Shown here piece by piece: positions 35,857-42,530 of a stretch of DNA of 64,000 nt; positions within the stretch are counted from its first letter, which is position 1, and each line of letters starts with the position of its first letter. A program made the position numbers and the translations under genes. Below the pieces are notes generated by a model. The model was not told where the DNA came from. It ran no database searches and saw only the letters and a list, made by a program, of their open reading frames with translations. The DNA comes from Beijerinckia sp. 28-YEA-48 (lineage in GTDB: Bacteria > Pseudomonadota > Alphaproteobacteria > Rhizobiales > Beijerinckiaceae), in NCBI RefSeq assembly GCF_900104955.1, contig NZ_FNSI01000001.1, forward strand, positions 1,150,001-1,214,000, given 5' to 3'.

Positions 35857-38800
35857 TTGTCTGACCAGGTGAACCCCGCCGCGATCTGCGACGTCGCACC
35901 TGCGCCGACGAGGATCTGCGCCCGGCCGAGTTTTGCCCGGCGCTGCGCCTTGTTTTGCGCCGGCACGGTCTCGCTGATCGCGATCCTCTGCCTGGGCGCC
36001 GGCGGCTATCTGTACTGGCGCCTCAGCCAGGGGCCGATCCATGTGGAATGGCTGTCGACGCGCATTCAAGACGAGCTCAATGCCCGCTTGCCCAGCGGCT
36101 ATGCGGTTCAGCTCGGCCATACGGTCATCGAGAGCACCGACAATGGACCGGTTCTGTCCATCGATGGTTTGGAATTGCGCGGCCCGGACGGTGGCCTGGC
36201 GGTGACCGCACCGCGCGCCACCGTGTCGATCGACCCACTGCGGCTCGCTGGCGGCGAGGCGCGACCGCGCCGTCTCAATCTCTACGATCTCAATATGCGG
36301 CTCATCGTTCTTGAAGACGGCATGGTGGCGCTGTCGGCGGGCGAGAAAGAGATCATGCTGCCAAAGCCCGCGGCCATGGACGATCCGGCGCTGACGACGC
36401 CGCAGGCGCGTCTGGTGTCCGTCGTCGCCCATATCATCGCGGCGGCCACCGCCGGGGCCTCGCCGCTGGGCGATCTGGAGCATGCCGGCCTCATCGGCGG
36501 TCATCTGGTCTTCGAAGACCAGCGCACCGGCGTGAAGAATCGATTCAACAACCTGTCCTTGTCCTTTGATAAATCGAACGAAGGCGCCGATCTGCAAGTC
36601 ACGGCCGATGACGGTCCGCGGCAGCGCGAGGTGCGTATCAAGGCGGCGGGGTTTAGCGGCGATGGGGCCGATGGCGCTGCCCGCCTCGACATGTCGATGC
36701 GCGATCTCTCGCTCGACGACTTGGCGCTTCTGTCGGGTCGGCGTGAGCTGCCGTTTGATTTCGACATGCCGGTTTCTGGCAATGCCCGTTTCGCCATCGG
36801 CAAGGATGGGGCGCTCTATGTGGCGCAGGGCGACTATACGATCGGCGAGGGTCTCTTCGTCTTCCGCCATCCCGATCACGAACCGATGGCGGTGCGCGCG
36901 GTCAACGGCTCTTTCGCCTGGCAGCCGGATCGTCAGGTTTTCGATCTCACCGGCACGCGCTTTTTGGGCGGCGGCACGGACCTGGGTTTTTCCGGAACGA
37001 TCGTTCCGCCGGCGCCGAACGAGGATGCCTGGCACGTCAATATCGATATCGCCCCTGGCCAGTTTGGGCCGGAACGGCCGAAGGAGACCGATATCGTCAT
37101 CGAGCGTGGCGAGCTGGCGGTCACCGTCAATCCGGTGGCGCAGACGTGGTCGCTTGATCAACTGAATGTCGCCGGGCCGGCTCTGTCGATGAAGCTCAGC
37201 GCCCAGGGCAGCTGGCGTGAGGGCGAGAACCGGCTGGCGCTGTCAGCCGACGTGCAGAAGACGCCGGTGCGCACGGTGATGCGGCTGTGGCCGACCTTCG
37301 CCGCGCCGGAAACACGCGCGTTCCTCCTGCAACATCTGCTCGGCGGTCAGCTCGATACCGGTTCCGTGCGCATCGATCTCGATCCCGATGCCATGGCGGC
37401 GTTGCGCAACGCGCATCCCGTGCCGGAGCAGGCCTTGAACATCGAGTTCAATGTCTCCGACGGCGTGTTCGACTATTTGCCCGGTGCGCCGCCGCTGTCG
37501 CGCCTGGTCGGCAGCGGCCAAGTCTCTGGCAAGAGCACCCAGTTCACGGCGAGCCAGGGGCAAATCGATCTGGCGCAAGGGCGCAAACTCTCGCTCGTTT
37601 CAGCGAAATTCGAGATTCCAGATCAGACCAAGTGGATATTCCCGGCGTCGGTCAACGTGCAATACACGGGCACCGTCGATGCCATTATGGATTTCGTTTC
37701 GCGCGATGCGCTGAAATCCTATGGCGCCGTGCCGATCGATCCGAGCACGATCAAGGGGCAGGTCGATGGCCGCGCGGTGATCGACCTGACCCTTGGGCAC
37801 GAGGCGCCGGGCCGTGACCCCAATATTCGTTTCTCGCAACAGGTCAGCAATCTGACCATCGAGAAATTCGTCGGCAAGGAGCGGCTGGATCAAGGGACGC
37901 TCACTGTCGCTGGCGACAGCAAGGGCATGACGGCCTCGGGGCAGGGCCGTCTCTTTGGCACCACCGCGAAGATCGACATGCGGCAAGCCAACCATGGTCC
38001 GGCGGAGGCGGCGGTCTCCTTCGTGCTCGACGATGCCGCGCGCGCCAAGCAGGGCTGGGCCAGCGATGCTTATTTGTCGGGACCGATGGGCGTTCGACTG
38101 ACGGCGCTTCTTGGTCAAAGCGACAAGCAGCGCGGCACGGTCGAACTCGATTTGCAGAAGACGGCGATCAACTTGCCGATCCCTGGCGTCGGCAAGCCGG
38201 CGGGCCGCGCCTCGAAGGCGACATTCACGCTGACCGGCGACCAGGATAAGATCCAGTTGCAACAGCTCGCCTTCGATGGCGGGACGTTCTCAGCGCAGGG
38301 ACAGATCGATCTCGATGGTGGCGGTGGCTTCCAGAGCGCCCGCCTGAGCCAGATCAAACTCTCGCCCGGCGATGACATGCGCGCCGATATCCAGCTTAGC
38401 GACGACGGACTTAAGATCGTCGCGCGCGGCAATGTCTTCGATGCGCGCCCGCTGTTGCAGCAAGCCAATGAGGGGCAGGGGCGTAGCAATGGCGGCGTCG
38501 ATCTCGATCTCAAGTCGGCGCTGGTGACAGGTTATAATGGTCAGTCCCTGGCCAATGTGGATTTGCGCTTGATCCGCAAGGGCACGACCTTGCGCGATAT
38601 CAAGATGACGGCGCGTTCCGGCCGTGCGCCAGTGACCGTCGGCCTGACGCGCGACGACGGCCAGCCGCAGGTGACGGTGCGGGCCGGCGACGGTGGCGCG
38701 CTGCTGTCTTTCTTCGACTATTACAAGCGCATGGAAGGCGGCCAGCTTGTGCTGGTCACGCAAGGGTTTGGCGAGGATGTGAGCGGCGTGCTCTCGGTGC

Positions 38801-39336
38801 GCGATTTCACTTTGCGCAACGAGCCGGCGCTCGGCCGTCTGTTGCAGGAGGGCGTGCCGCAGCGGGCCGACGAACGGGCGGCGCAGCTTGATCCGAGTGC
38901 CGTCGCCTTCAATCGTCTCGGCGTTACCTTCCATAAGGTCGATGGCCGTCTGGATATCCGGGATGCGATCATCAATGGTCCGTCGATCGGCATGACCCTG
39001 GAAGGCTCGATCGATTATCCCCGCAATCGCGTCAATATGAACGGCACATTCGTGCCGGCCTATGGCGTCAATAATCTCTTCGCGAAAGTGCCGTTGTTCG
39101 GCCCGCTGCTGGGCGGTGGCACGAACGAAGGTCTGTTCGGCGTCAACTTTCGCGTGTCGGGGCTGGCGAGCGCGCCAACCTTGAACATCAACCCGCTCTC
39201 GGCCATCGCGCCTGGCTTCATCCGCAAGATTTTCGGCGCCATCGATGCCTCGCAGACGCCATCGCCGCCGGCTCCGATGCCACAGCAGCGTCAACGCCAG
39301 CCGTCGATGCCGATGTCGATCACGCCAGGGCAGTAA
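35857..39336 (+). CDS. AsmA-like/YhdP-type bridge protein (DUF3971 and AsmA C-terminal domains)
   Basis: A 1159-residue envelope protein with one N-terminal membrane helix (CAGTVSLIAILCLGAGGYLY, about 34-53) and a very long, repetitive beta-rich periplasmic region. The C-terminus (FDYYKRMEGGQLVLVTQGFG at about 952-971, then NGPSIGMTLEGSIDYPRNRV and FRVSGLASAPTLNINPLS) is the conserved AsmA-like end. Such RBG/VPS13-like proteins are thought to carry phospholipids from inner to outer membrane. The start is TTG (35857) with GAGAG upstream; the first ATG lies far inside the protein. It is intact with no frameshifts. Its normal neighbours are the peroxiredoxin and tyrS, but here another gene intervenes. 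Confidence 0.87.
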   Translation: MSDQVNPAAICDVAPAPTRICARPSFARRCALFCAGTVSLIAILCLGAGGYLYWRLSQGPIHVEWLSTRIQDELNARLPSGYAVQLGHTVIESTDNGPVLSIDGLELRGPDGGLAVTAPRATVSIDPLRLAGGEARPRRLNLYDLNMRLIVLEDGMVALSAGEKEIMLPKPAAMDDPALTTPQARLVSVVAHIIAAATAGASPLGDLEHAGLIGGHLVFEDQRTGVKNRFNNLSLSFDKSNEGADLQVTADDGPRQREVRIKAAGFSGDGADGAARLDMSMRDLSLDDLALLSGRRELPFDFDMPVSGNARFAIGKDGALYVAQGDYTIGEGLFVFRHPDHEPMAVRAVNGSFAWQPDRQVFDLTGTRFLGGGTDLGFSGTIVPPAPNEDAWHVNIDIAPGQFGPERPKETDIVIERGELAVTVNPVAQTWSLDQLNVAGPALSMKLSAQGSWREGENRLALSADVQKTPVRTVMRLWPTFAAPETRAFLLQHLLGGQLDTGSVRIDLDPDAMAALRNAHPVPEQALNIEFNVSDGVFDYLPGAPPLSRLVGSGQVSGKSTQFTASQGQIDLAQGRKLSLVSAKFEIPDQTKWIFPASVNVQYTGTVDAIMDFVSRDALKSYGAVPIDPSTIKGQVDGRAVIDLTLGHEAPGRDPNIRFSQQVSNLTIEKFVGKERLDQGTLTVAGDSKGMTASGQGRLFGTTAKIDMRQANHGPAEAAVSFVLDDAARAKQGWASDAYLSGPMGVRLTALLGQSDKQRGTVELDLQKTAINLPIPGVGKPAGRASKATFTLTGDQDKIQLQQLAFDGGTFSAQGQIDLDGGGGFQSARLSQIKLSPGDDMRADIQLSDDGLKIVARGNVFDARPLLQQANEGQGRSNGGVDLDLKSALVTGYNGQSLANVDLRLIRKGTTLRDIKMTARSGRAPVTVGLTRDDGQPQVTVRAGDGGALLSFFDYYKRMEGGQLVLVTQGFGEDVSGVLSVRDFTLRNEPALGRLLQEGVPQRADERAAQLDPSAVAFNRLGVTFHKVDGRLDIRDAIINGPSIGMTLEGSIDYPRNRVNMNGTFVPAYGVNNLFAKVPLFGPLLGGGTNEGLFGVNFRVSGLASAPTLNINPLSAIAPGFIRKIFGAIDASQTPSPPAPMPQQRQRQPSMPMSITPGQ

Positions 39337-39524
39337 GAGCTTATTCCGGGTACAGCAAGAAGCGTTCTGATTTTGCCGTGTCGATAGGATCATCGTCTAT
39401 ACGACGTCCATGCTGGTCGACGCGCGAACGCAACCTCGTCGTGAGTGCGTATTGCGCTTAGTAACGAGCAGGGAGCTTAGTCTGCAAATGTGTTCGTGAG
39501 GTCTGATTACGGATTCCGAACTGC

Positions 39525-41039
39525 TTAGTGTTTTAGATCGCTAGGGGGGGGCGCCTCAAGGTCATTCGATAATTTCTGTTCGTTGGTGTTTGGAGTGTTC
39601 GCGATTAGAGCGCTTGCCCCTCGTGCAGTCACTGTCGAGTTGTCTTGCGATAGATCCTCACCGTAGATTTTAGAAAACGCGCCTGAGAATTTGGAATCGT
39701 CCCGAACCCAAGAGAATACCGGCCACTCTCGGTAACATTCTTTTTTAAGAGAATCGCTCGCCGCAATTCGAGGCATCAATTTTACGACTCCGTCCACGTC
39801 TTCCTTCAGTGAAAGCACACAGATTTGGAAGTCATCGGTTGCTGCACTCCAATCGGTTTGCTCAATTAGGTTGCTAGCCTTCTCTGTCTCTTCTAGATTT
39901 TTATATGCATTCGCAAGGTTGATAGTAAACATTTTTAGTAAGCGATCATTTATTGGTGCTTTTGATTTTACGATAGCGAATTCGATAAGTCTTGAGCTAA
40001 GTCTGTATCTTCTCTTTGTGATCAGTTCGTATGTAATATTATTTAGTTCTTCGTATGCTTTTGTGATCTCGTTTTTGAAATTTTGCTTCCAAAGTAAGCA
40101 GATTAATTCGATGCCAATTTCGATTAGTGTGTCTGCCGATCTATTTAGATAATTTGGGGTTAATTCCAGCTTATCGCCAATTTTCATGTCGGCGGTTGTA
40201 AAGTTGCTTTTTTGACAATTTGAAAGATACGTGGCGTTGATTAGAAGGTCTCCATGCGCAACTAAGTTGCGACGTTCAAATATTTCTACAAACTCTCCCC
40301 ATTTTTCGTGTTTTTCTTTCGGAAATGAGACGTTGAACGTGCGCTCAATATATTCAATCTGCTTTAGATGACTTTCACGCATTACGTTAGATACTTCGTC
40401 GTCGATCAGTCTGGTAATTACATCGTCGAACGAGTTCATTGACAGAATATCAGAAATTGCCATCTTTTTGTCTGAAGAGCGAAGTCTTTCAGGCAGAGCC
40501 ATGATCATAGTTTTGATTAGATCAACTATCAGAGAGTCGAATGTTGCGACTAAGCTGAGTAGAATAGCACCGGGTATCACGGCTTTTGCGGACGACATGT
40601 CTTGCAAGCGTTCTAGGTGTCGCATAACTTTAGACAAATCAGTATTGTAAATACCGAAAGTAGCGAATGAGCCATCATCGCTAATTTTCGCTGTTGTTTT
40701 CTCGATGTCGACTAGCATTTCTTTTTCAAGATATACTGTCTGTAGGATCGGGTAGATAGCTAATACGTTCGTCGTGATAGTTCTGTATCCAGATATTGAT
40801 ATCTGGAAACGGTGCATCAATTCGGAAAGTTGCTGCCATGGAAGCTTTTCATGTGATGCTTCGGTCTTATTTTCCGAGGAGTTTCCTATTTCTAATTTAT
40901 AGGAATCGTCCTGGACTTTTAGTTTCCATTGTTCTGTTTGCTCTAATGTCTTGCAAAAGATTGCGCCGCTATCGGGATCATCTTTTTTCGGTTTTGCAAA
41001 GCAAAGAAAGCCTACGTACTCCTCCTTAGATCCTGTCAT
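39525..41039 (-). CDS. AT-rich 504-residue protein of unknown function with a HEPN-like motif
   Basis: No known family can be named. The composition is visibly poorer in GC than both neighbours, with many AAT/ATT/TTT codons, so recent acquisition is likely. ATG 41039 has a strong RBS (GGAGGGGG), so it should be translated. The protein is soluble, mostly helical, with no signal peptide. The segment FERRNLVAHGD (near residues 258-268) contains R-N-L-V-A-H, the Rx4-6H pattern of HEPN ribonucleases in its R-N-x-x-A-H-G form. The C-terminal third (about 340-450) has a TPR-like feel (LANAYKNLEETEKASNLIEQ). One gene, no partner. An abortive-infection or RNA-processing role is inference only. Confidence 0.65.
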   Translation of the reverse strand: MTGSKEEYVGFLCFAKPKKDDPDSGAIFCKTLEQTEQWKLKVQDDSYKLEIGNSSENKTEASHEKLPWQQLSELMHRFQISISGYRTITTNVLAIYPILQTVYLEKEMLVDIEKTTAKISDDGSFATFGIYNTDLSKVMRHLERLQDMSSAKAVIPGAILLSLVATFDSLIVDLIKTMIMALPERLRSSDKKMAISDILSMNSFDDVITRLIDDEVSNVMRESHLKQIEYIERTFNVSFPKEKHEKWGEFVEIFERRNLVAHGDLLINATYLSNCQKSNFTTADMKIGDKLELTPNYLNRSADTLIEIGIELICLLWKQNFKNEITKAYEELNNITYELITKRRYRLSSRLIEFAIVKSKAPINDRLLKMFTINLANAYKNLEETEKASNLIEQTDWSAATDDFQICVLSLKEDVDGVVKLMPRIAASDSLKKECYREWPVFSWVRDDSKFSGAFSKIYGEDLSQDNSTVTARGASALIANTPNTNEQKLSNDLEAPPPSDLKH

Positions 41040-41267
41040 AAATCCCCCTCCCCAATGCTCTTAGGAGCAACAATTAGTATTACACACAGCACGTATATTG
41101 TGGCGGGGATGAAATACTAGGTCAATATTCTAATCGTTTTTCGCATGATAAACAGGTCGCGTTCCAACGCGTTATAGAGCCTCTTAAGCGAGAGAGGGGC
41201 TCGTTCACACTACTGCTGCGCTGGATAGCCGCGTCTAGGATTCGGCGCGGGTTATGACGTGAGAAGC

Positions 41268-42530
41268 CTACTCCGGCCGCAGCAGGATGTGCTTCTTCTT
41301 GCCAAGCGACAGTTTCACGGCGCCATTAACTAGATCGTCGCGCGTTAGCACAGCTCGCTCGTCGGTGACGACTTTATCGTTGACGCGCAGTCCCCCAGCC
41401 TTGATTTGTCGGCGTGCTTCGCCAGTTGTAGCTACAAGCCCTGCAGCGACATTGGCGGTCAGCACGCCGATGCCGGCGTCGAATTCGGCGGTGGTGACGG
41501 TGATCGTCGGCAGCGTGTCGGCGGCGACGCCTTCCTCAAAGGTTTTGCGTGCCGTTTCGGCCGCCTGTTCGGCGGCCTCGCGGCCATGCATCATCGCCGT
41601 CGCCTCATTGGCGAGCACTTTCTTGGCTTCGTTGATCTCGGCGCCGCCGAGCTTTTCGTAGCGGGCGATCTCGTCGAGCGGCAGGTCGGTGAACAGGCGC
41701 ATGAAGCGGCCGATGTCGCCGTCCTCCGTGTTGCGCCAGTACTGCCAGTAGTCATAGGGGCTGAGCATGTCGCCGTTGAGCCAGACGGCGCCTGACGCGG
41801 TCTTGCCCATTTTGGCGCCCGACGCGGTGGTCAATAGCGGCGCGGTGAGCGCGTAGAGCTGCGGCGTGCCCATGCGGCGGCCGAGATCGATGCCGGTGAC
41901 GATATTACCCCACTGGTCCGAGCCGCCCATTTGCAGGACGCAGCCATAGCGCCGGTTCAGCTCGACGAAGTCGTAGGCCTGCAGGCACATGTAGTTGAAT
42001 TCGATGAACGAGAGTTCCTGGTCGCGTTCGAGGCGCATGGCGACGGAATCCATCGACAGCATGCGGTTGACCGAGAAGTGCCGGCCGACATCGCGCAGGA
42101 AGTCGATGTAGTTGAGCGCCGTCAGCCATTCGGCATTGTCCGACATGTAAGCGTCGGTCTTGCCGTGGCCGAAGTTCAGGAAGCGCGCGAAGGTTTTGCC
42201 GATCTCCGCCTTGTTGGCGTCGATGGTCTCGACCGGCAGCAGTTTGCGGCTCTCGTCCTTGCCCGAGGGATCGCCGACGCGGGTGGTGCCACCGCCCATC
42301 AGCGGGATCGGCTTGCCGGCGCCGGTCTTCTGCAGCCAGTGCATCATCATCGTCGGCAGCAGATGGCCGATGTGCAGGGAGGGGGCGGTGCAGTCGTAGC
42401 CGACATAGGTGATCAGCTCGCCGGCCCGCGCCTTGTCGTCGACCCCGGCAAAATCCGAGCACTGGTGCACGTAGCCGCGCTCCAGGAGGACAGAGAGAAA
42501 ATCGGATTTCGGGCGGAATTCGGCGGACAT
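41268..42530 (-). CDS. tyrS: tyrosyl-tRNA synthetase
   Basis: A 420-residue class I synthetase charging tRNA-Tyr. The HIGH motif is in SLHIGHLLP (about 50-58) and KMSKS appears as KMGKT near residue 240. Tyrosine-recognition residues occur in VGYDCTAPS and [10 protein letters not shown]. An S4-like RNA-binding domain closes the protein ([20 protein letters not shown]). The length is typical. ATG 42530 follows AGAGG. It lies on the minus strand, 228 bp beyond the AT-rich gene. Confidence 0.96.

Follow-up and report, generated by a model that had tools for sequence, protein, structure and literature searches.

HEPN ribonucleases (RNases) are common effectors of phage defence, and the switch that controls them is often a separate protein, a second messenger or a nucleoside triphosphatase (NTPase) domain, CRISPR-linked Csm6 being one example. 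Here we analysed the gene of a HEPN-like protein in 64,000 nucleotides (nt) of DNA from Beijerinckia sp. 28-YEA-48 (contig NZ_FNSI01000001.1, positions 1,150,001 to 1,214,000; this whole stretch is hereafter called the window). The gene is an insertion between an AsmA-like gene and tyrS, which are normally adjacent, and it belongs to an unnamed family that is widely scattered across bacteria and carries an invariant motif resembling a HEPN active site. We consider it probable that it is a self-contained, horizontally acquired abortive-infection gene, coding for a single-gene HEPN RNase with a TPR-like sensor tail.

Among tested systems, the nearest analogue is Tha of a Staphylococcus aureus prophage, a HEPN RNase encoded by one gene, which is triggered by tail proteins and inactivated by the H270A substitution (PMC11087260). 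Tha resembles the window protein in being single-gene and mobile, in having the Rx4H motif in the form RNxxxH and in needing no partner (PMC11087260), and the logic proposed for both is the same, with a phage protein triggering a HEPN RNase. The layouts set the two apart as described: Tha-1 has 301 residues, with a C-terminal HEPN domain (184-296) behind an unassigned N-terminal part (PMC11087260), whereas in the window protein the motif occupies residues 257-262 of 504 and TPR-like repeats make up some 145 residues after it, which is not the Tha arrangement of some 300 residues ending in the HEPN domain. We propose that the window protein works like Tha without being a Tha by its layout.

Other described proteins share parts of this architecture. 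The HEPN_RiboL-PSP family (PF18735), described as distantly related to AbiF/AbiD (PMC3710099), provides the nearest profile, but the window protein scores below its cut-off and has a TPR-like tail. HEPN and TPR domains are fused in LA2681 (PF18733) and C6orf70 (PMC3710099), as would be the case here; the window protein has no LA2681 hit, and the comparison with C6orf70/DUF4209 was made through its Pfam scan alone, which lists no such hit. The CARF-HEPN effectors Csx1 and Csm6 align with it over their HEPN part, and it has no match to their CARF part. DS-11, reported by DefensePredictor, is a one-protein defence system that is abolished by a catalytic mutation; it combines HEPN with a CBS domain in place of the TPR-like part seen here (PMC13092281). 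The same source mentions four further HEPN systems without sequences (PMC13092281), and uncharacterised HEPN systems are also mentioned for the P4-like hotspot (PMC9122126); our family may be one of these unnamed systems. A literature search found no name for it and returned nothing for the three protein accessions tried or for the terms HEPN-TPR and TPR-HEPN, the supplementary tables of PMC9122126 and PMC13092281 being outside its scope.

An unnamed family and its invariant motif

A sequence-only reading of the window had described the gene as an orphan with no recognised homologue, a description that we have to abandon. Single-protein back-translated searches of genome and viral contigs returned no relatives, whereas an alignment-based scan yielded 69 loci from genome contigs plus 5 from viral contigs. 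With tblastn we also collected relatives on plasmids of Nostoc and Crinalium and, limited to the HEPN region, partial matches on plasmids of Rhodococcus and Parageobacillus; within the order, 6 of 397 genomes gave matches, the own genome included. Together, the searches place the family at approximately 75 loci in more than 10 phyla, named from record titles and tree taxonomy, several loci coming from metagenome-assembled genomes whose bins may hold stray contigs. The phyla are Pseudomonadota, Bacteroidota, Cyanobacteriota, Chloroflexota, Spirochaetota, Gemmatimonadota, Planctomycetota, Campylobacterota, Myxococcota, Acidobacteriota, Kiritimatiellota, Verrucomicrobiota, Chlorobiota and candidate phyla. 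The 59 aligned members are approximately 20-28% identical to the window protein. Full-length members are rare: profile searches found them in 3 of 394 genomes of the order and 2 of 398 genomes of the phylum, each count including the window's own, and the other matches (5 order genomes and 3 phylum genomes) correspond to the HEPN-like module only, in open reading frames (ORFs) of approximately 250-350 residues. A quick tree of 63 rows placed the window protein in a starred group of 10 (8 alphaproteobacterial and 2 unlabelled), with Croceicoccus as its sister; the sister row is flagged as unsure and the end branches are long.

Stand-alone HEPN-like proteins of approximately 250-350 residues, with no TPR-like tail and no Pfam family, are present at L142, L143, L144, L147, L148 and L149, of which L143 belongs to the same taxonomic family as the window. 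At L025, L061, L069, L070 and L071 the copies are split into two ORFs or shortened, suggesting gene decay or assembly errors; L061 shares 97% DNA identity with L060, which is intact. In the strain of the Crinalium member (L009), another plasmid harbours a second, partial match (NC_019734.1:40422-40667, 50% identity over 86 residues).

Alignment A2 (59 members) has invariant residues at E252, R256, R257, N258, H262, Y271, Y297, N374, W439 and P440. The described features of HEPN active sites are Rx4-6H, a polar residue after the Arg and often Ex3[KR] (PMC3710099). In the window protein they correspond, respectively, to R257-NLVA-H262, to N258 (59 of 59 members, for the polar N/D/H position) and to E252-xxx-R256, with the second acidic residue, both positions being invariant. 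The Rx4H signature that the sequence-only reading had picked out in FERRNLVAHGD is thus present and strictly conserved. The motif alone is weak evidence, since R[NDH]x3H occurs in 3.7% of 5000 composition-preserving shuffles of the window protein; its conservation is what counts. Part of the motif was selected for by our searches, because EIx[EA]RRNL[FV] formed part of one of the two patterns used; H262 lay outside that pattern. Of the 18 loci, out of 72 with a core ORF, that do not match this pattern, 17 keep RRNxxxH, the exception being the broken copy L071. All six stand-alone relatives have R[ND]xxxH.

We took residues 132-320 as the putative HEPN domain. Sub-threshold Pfam and PADLOC matches overlie the motif at residues 149-281, and the stand-alone relatives cover this module. 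HEPN_RiboL-PSP matches the window protein with an E-value of 7.5e-4 and the best member with 5.2e-6, and in a relaxed HHalign alignment RRN...H falls on RN...H, with the first helix also matched. Membership in this family was rejected on the Pfam gathering cut-off, at 19.9 bits (23.2 in the genome search) versus 28.4 bits. The HEPN part of the Csx1/Csm6 PADLOC models aligns at residues 183-291 (E-values 1.5e-5 to 3.3e-3). HEPN_LA2681 was rejected, with no hit in G000 or in the Pfam scan up to an E-value of 10 and an HHalign probability of 0.2% against three LA2681 members, and an NCBIfam TsrA match at residues 30-87 was dismissed (17.3 bits versus a cut-off of 85). PHROGs searches with 5 proteins gave no hit, and no PADLOC, NCBIfam, PHROGs or Pfam family exceeded its cut-off among the members scanned. 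The profile search of the motif that had been advised puts HEPN profiles on the expected residues, all of them below threshold.

AlphaFold2 gave a mean predicted local distance difference test score (pLDDT) of 35.6 without an alignment and 85.0 with an alignment of 56 sequences. The latter model is mostly helical with a TPR-like C-terminus, as anticipated for the rest of the chain from its sequence. The best structural matches are TPR regulators including PlcR, Rap and NprR, and no HEPN chain is present among the matches listed in two structural searches (50 rows each), which excludes nothing, because TPR-type matches fill the listings. With regard to the HEPN helical bundle, the structural analysis provided a confident helical model and no HEPN chain among the matches listed. 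A Foldseek search of viral models gave one hit, an uncharacterised siphovirus protein of 311 residues (E-value 3.5e-4). Against PDB sequences, phmmer found nothing and a profile search yielded only E-values of 0.11 (POP6, off the motif) and 1.1 (a TPR stretch of a protease).

Read at face value, these matches would suit a regulator that has a TPR-like domain and binds RNA or protein, whether HEPN-like or merely helical, akin to MtlR-type or RRNPP-type proteins and devoid of RNase activity; non-catalytic HEPN proteins do exist (PMC3710099). The motif is described as lost in these, however (PMC3710099), whereas R257, N258 and H262 are invariant here, and a scattered, mobile distribution is ill-suited to a housekeeping regulator. 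We regard this possibility as quite unlikely.

Satellites, plasmids and cassette-like units

A blastn search with the Erwinia member revealed a 67%-identical gene in five Escherichia coli genomes; the other 294 matching genomes lack the gene, the rows listed for them covering only a 50-nt end piece. By direct search the gene is present at >99% identity in 5 of 5426 E. coli genomes, and it abuts an integrase gene in all five. We opened two of these loci; in both, no other annotated gene lies between psu and the integrase, which is located at tRNA-Sec, and P4-type genes lie further on. The E. coli protein, WP_126316185.1, aligns lengthwise with the window protein, whose N-terminus is longer, and keeps ERRNLFVH. 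The genes of the Erwinia copy and of the viral contig L080 also directly follow an integrase gene. The int-psu slot of P4-like satellites, in which the E. coli homologue resides, has been described as a hotspot for anti-phage systems, and cloning of 18 systems as well as the P4 set revealed seven that gave protection (PMC9122126). Defence-hotspot or mobile locations of the family include this slot and plasmids, where the gene is found beside restriction genes.

Two Nostoc plasmids carry a TaqI-like methyltransferase, a 183-residue protein, the HEPN-like gene and a helicase in one run, and neighbour proteins of Nostoc SO-36 score as a type IIG-like methyltransferase and a PLD-SNF2 helicase. These runs (L007:1883-10316 and L008:2965-10325) look like a multi-gene defence operon with no single matching PADLOC system. 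On the Crinalium plasmid, the gene follows that of a type I R subunit, homologues of which are present in the fetched flanks at 7 of 77 loci. Such arrangements might indicate that the gene serves restriction or other multi-gene systems in an accessory role, as a fail-safe RNase that kills once restriction has failed, and does not stand alone. HEPN genes in restriction-modification operons are indeed a known theme (PMC3710099), for which a fail-safe role has been proposed. We sought a conserved partner gene and found none, the largest neighbour cluster being present at 7 of 77 loci, and the gene stands alone at most loci, those of the window and of the E. coli satellites included, which makes a purely accessory role unlikely.

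Occurrence on plasmids, satellites and cassette-like units would also fit an addiction or toxin gene, one that helps to stabilise mobile elements and whose antitoxin went unrecognised, and toxins of HEPN-MNT pairs are known (PMC4621449). The lack of a conserved partner across the 77 loci and of a recognisable mobile element beside the window copy renders this explanation very improbable.

At an E-value of 1e-10, 126 immediate neighbours matched 141 PADLOC families and 80 distant genes matched 24, although these are not counts per protein, as one protein can match many models. The neighbour matches listed, at most 25 families, include type I restriction, TIR and MADS.

Comparisons between loci suggest what moves. 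The Marinomonas (L017) and Shewanella (L024) loci share 91.8% DNA identity over 1397 nt, corresponding to the gene and 38 nt, with no other hit between them, and the common stretch starts at a GTTAGG core site. Among 16 hand-picked DNA-related pairs, 12 have only the gene stretch in common and 4 have more; the Nostoc group (L007, L008, L053 and L071) has its operon in common. Most of the 12 gene-only pairs are merely ~70% identical, which makes L017/L024 the strong case. Judging by these alignments, the unit of mobility is often one gene.

We also looked for the palindromes that we take, by their consensus, to be integron attC sites. A scan of 1.03 Mb is not specific by itself, since its 17 hits compare with 17 after one shuffling round and 16 on the other strand. 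Five attC-like hits lie near the gene at 4 of 75 loci, where ~0.4 would be expected. Sites on both sides were found only in Marinospirillum L028 (3597-3680 and 5052-5168), and the hits in L076 and L083 were judged weak. These findings hint that members of the family in marine gammaproteobacteria may be carried as integron cassettes. An attC-like palindrome is also present at L017:8715-8762 and, by eye, just after the gene in L012.

The insertion between the AsmA-like gene and tyrS

The window protein has no match in the 60 relatives searched, 36 of which belong to the same genus. In the nearest relative by tyrS (G023, 92%), DNA homology by blastn extends up to position 39335 and resumes at 41268, and the break between these points measures 1932 nt in the window versus 97 nt in G023 (Table 1). 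A search for tyrS was positive in 59 of 61 genomes and returned 30 loci including the window's own. In 22 of the 29 others, AsmA lies downstream of tyrS within 1.5 kb, with a gap of 7-152 nt in 21 of them and 700 nt in one, as measured between match ends. The HEPN-like gene is absent from all 29 tyrS stretches. Of the seven loci without AsmA, L097 and L103 have <50 nt past tyrS and L112 only 565 nt; longer stretches fetched for three of the other four placed AsmA approximately 5.5 kb away in G030, and it was not found in the 8 kb from G001 or from G022. The gene is thus an insertion, since no congener has a match and AsmA and tyrS are only 7-152 nt apart in 21 of 29 relatives. The slot in G030 (L116, G030:C16) harbours an ORF of 1025 residues for an RND-type pump and a small ParE-like ORF, both named by eye from their translations; because it carries these other genes, we infer that the junction accepts inserts more than once. 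We searched the window insert for terminal or flanking repeats and found none.

Its composition also distinguishes the gene, with a guanine-plus-cytosine (GC) content of 0.411 and a third-position value (GC3) of 0.424, compared with 0.640/0.781 for the AsmA-like gene, 0.633/0.841 for tyrS and 0.646/0.854 for an MFS gene. Several elements of the sequence-only reading hold here: an AT-rich gene (GC 41% versus 63-65%) between an AsmA-like gene and tyrS, a strong ribosome-binding site directly before the ATG start codon, and the usual adjacency of the two flanking genes, which is found in most relatives examined. The comparison of the slot among relatives that it advised has now been made, and the gene was absent from this site in the relatives examined. 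The wording 'before tyrS' is valid for plus-strand coordinates only, as the gene shares the strand of tyrS and follows downstream of the 3' end of tyrS.

Table 1. Features of the AsmA-tyrS region, in window coordinates
Feature	Position	Strand	Basis
HEPN-like/TPR-like gene, 504 residues	39525..41039	-	ORF list, family alignment, AlphaFold2 model
E252-xxx-R256-R257-N258-xxx-H262 (ExxxRRNxxxH), putative HEPN active-site motif	40254..40286	-	invariant in 59/59
Residues 132-320, motif-bearing helical region, taken as HEPN domain	40080..40646	-	model helices, sub-threshold Pfam/PADLOC matches, stand-alone relatives
Residues 322-465, TPR-like helical repeats; conserved N374, D396-W397, W439-P440-x-F442	39645..40076	-	
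Shine-Dalgarno-like GGGGAGGGGG	41044..41053	-	read off the sequence, just before ATG
AT-rich insert, AsmA-like gene to tyrS	39336..41267	.	blastn versus L085 of G023
AsmA-like gene	35857-39336	+	flank of the 504-residue gene
tyrS	41268-42530	-	other flank of the 504-residue gene

Proposed function

The sequence-only reading had proposed a candidate single-gene defence system, and as a candidate it gains support from the invariant motif, the insertion and the E. coli relative, lone cargo of a P4 hotspot. The favoured reading, which we hold as probable, is that of a horizontally acquired gene whose protein would have a HEPN fold, form a dimer, cleave RNA, sense through its TPR-like part and act in defence. 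In such a system, the HEPN RNase would probably be dimeric and inactive in healthy cells. The TPR-like C-terminal repeats, perhaps with the aid of the variable N-terminal helix, would recognise a component of the phage, for example a protein. Recognition would release the HEPN domains, and a composite R257/N258/H262 site would then cleave cellular and/or phage RNA, stopping growth ahead of phage release.

Several results weigh against it, in addition to the absence of HEPN chains from the structural matches listed. All HEPN profile matches are below curated cut-offs, HEPN_RiboL-PSP matches only 4 of 59 members at an E-value of 0.01, and the HHalign probability is only 28%. Four other family members match no PADLOC family at an E-value of 0.01, and the E. 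coli member has no Pfam family. Tblastn searches of 50,697 phage records with the window or E. coli protein gave no match, and many neighbours are housekeeping rather than defence genes according to Pfam.

More tentatively, and at somewhat less than even chances, the family as a whole might represent an undescribed, pan-phylum one-gene immune system, with HEPN RNase and TPR-like sensor in one chain. It would resemble nucleotide-binding leucine-rich repeat (NLR) proteins without the NTPase switch and would travel singly, by P4-like satellites, integron cassettes, plasmids and bare chromosomal insertions.

The family seemingly holds sensor and killer in one short chain, which makes it easy to clone and test, and its E. 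coli member already resides in a slot known for defence genes. A gene that looks like an orphan in its own genus can be resolved by its context elsewhere. If it is active, unnamed proteins in more than 10 phyla would gain an explanation, and the family would offer a simple model of how a phage signal opens a HEPN nuclease.
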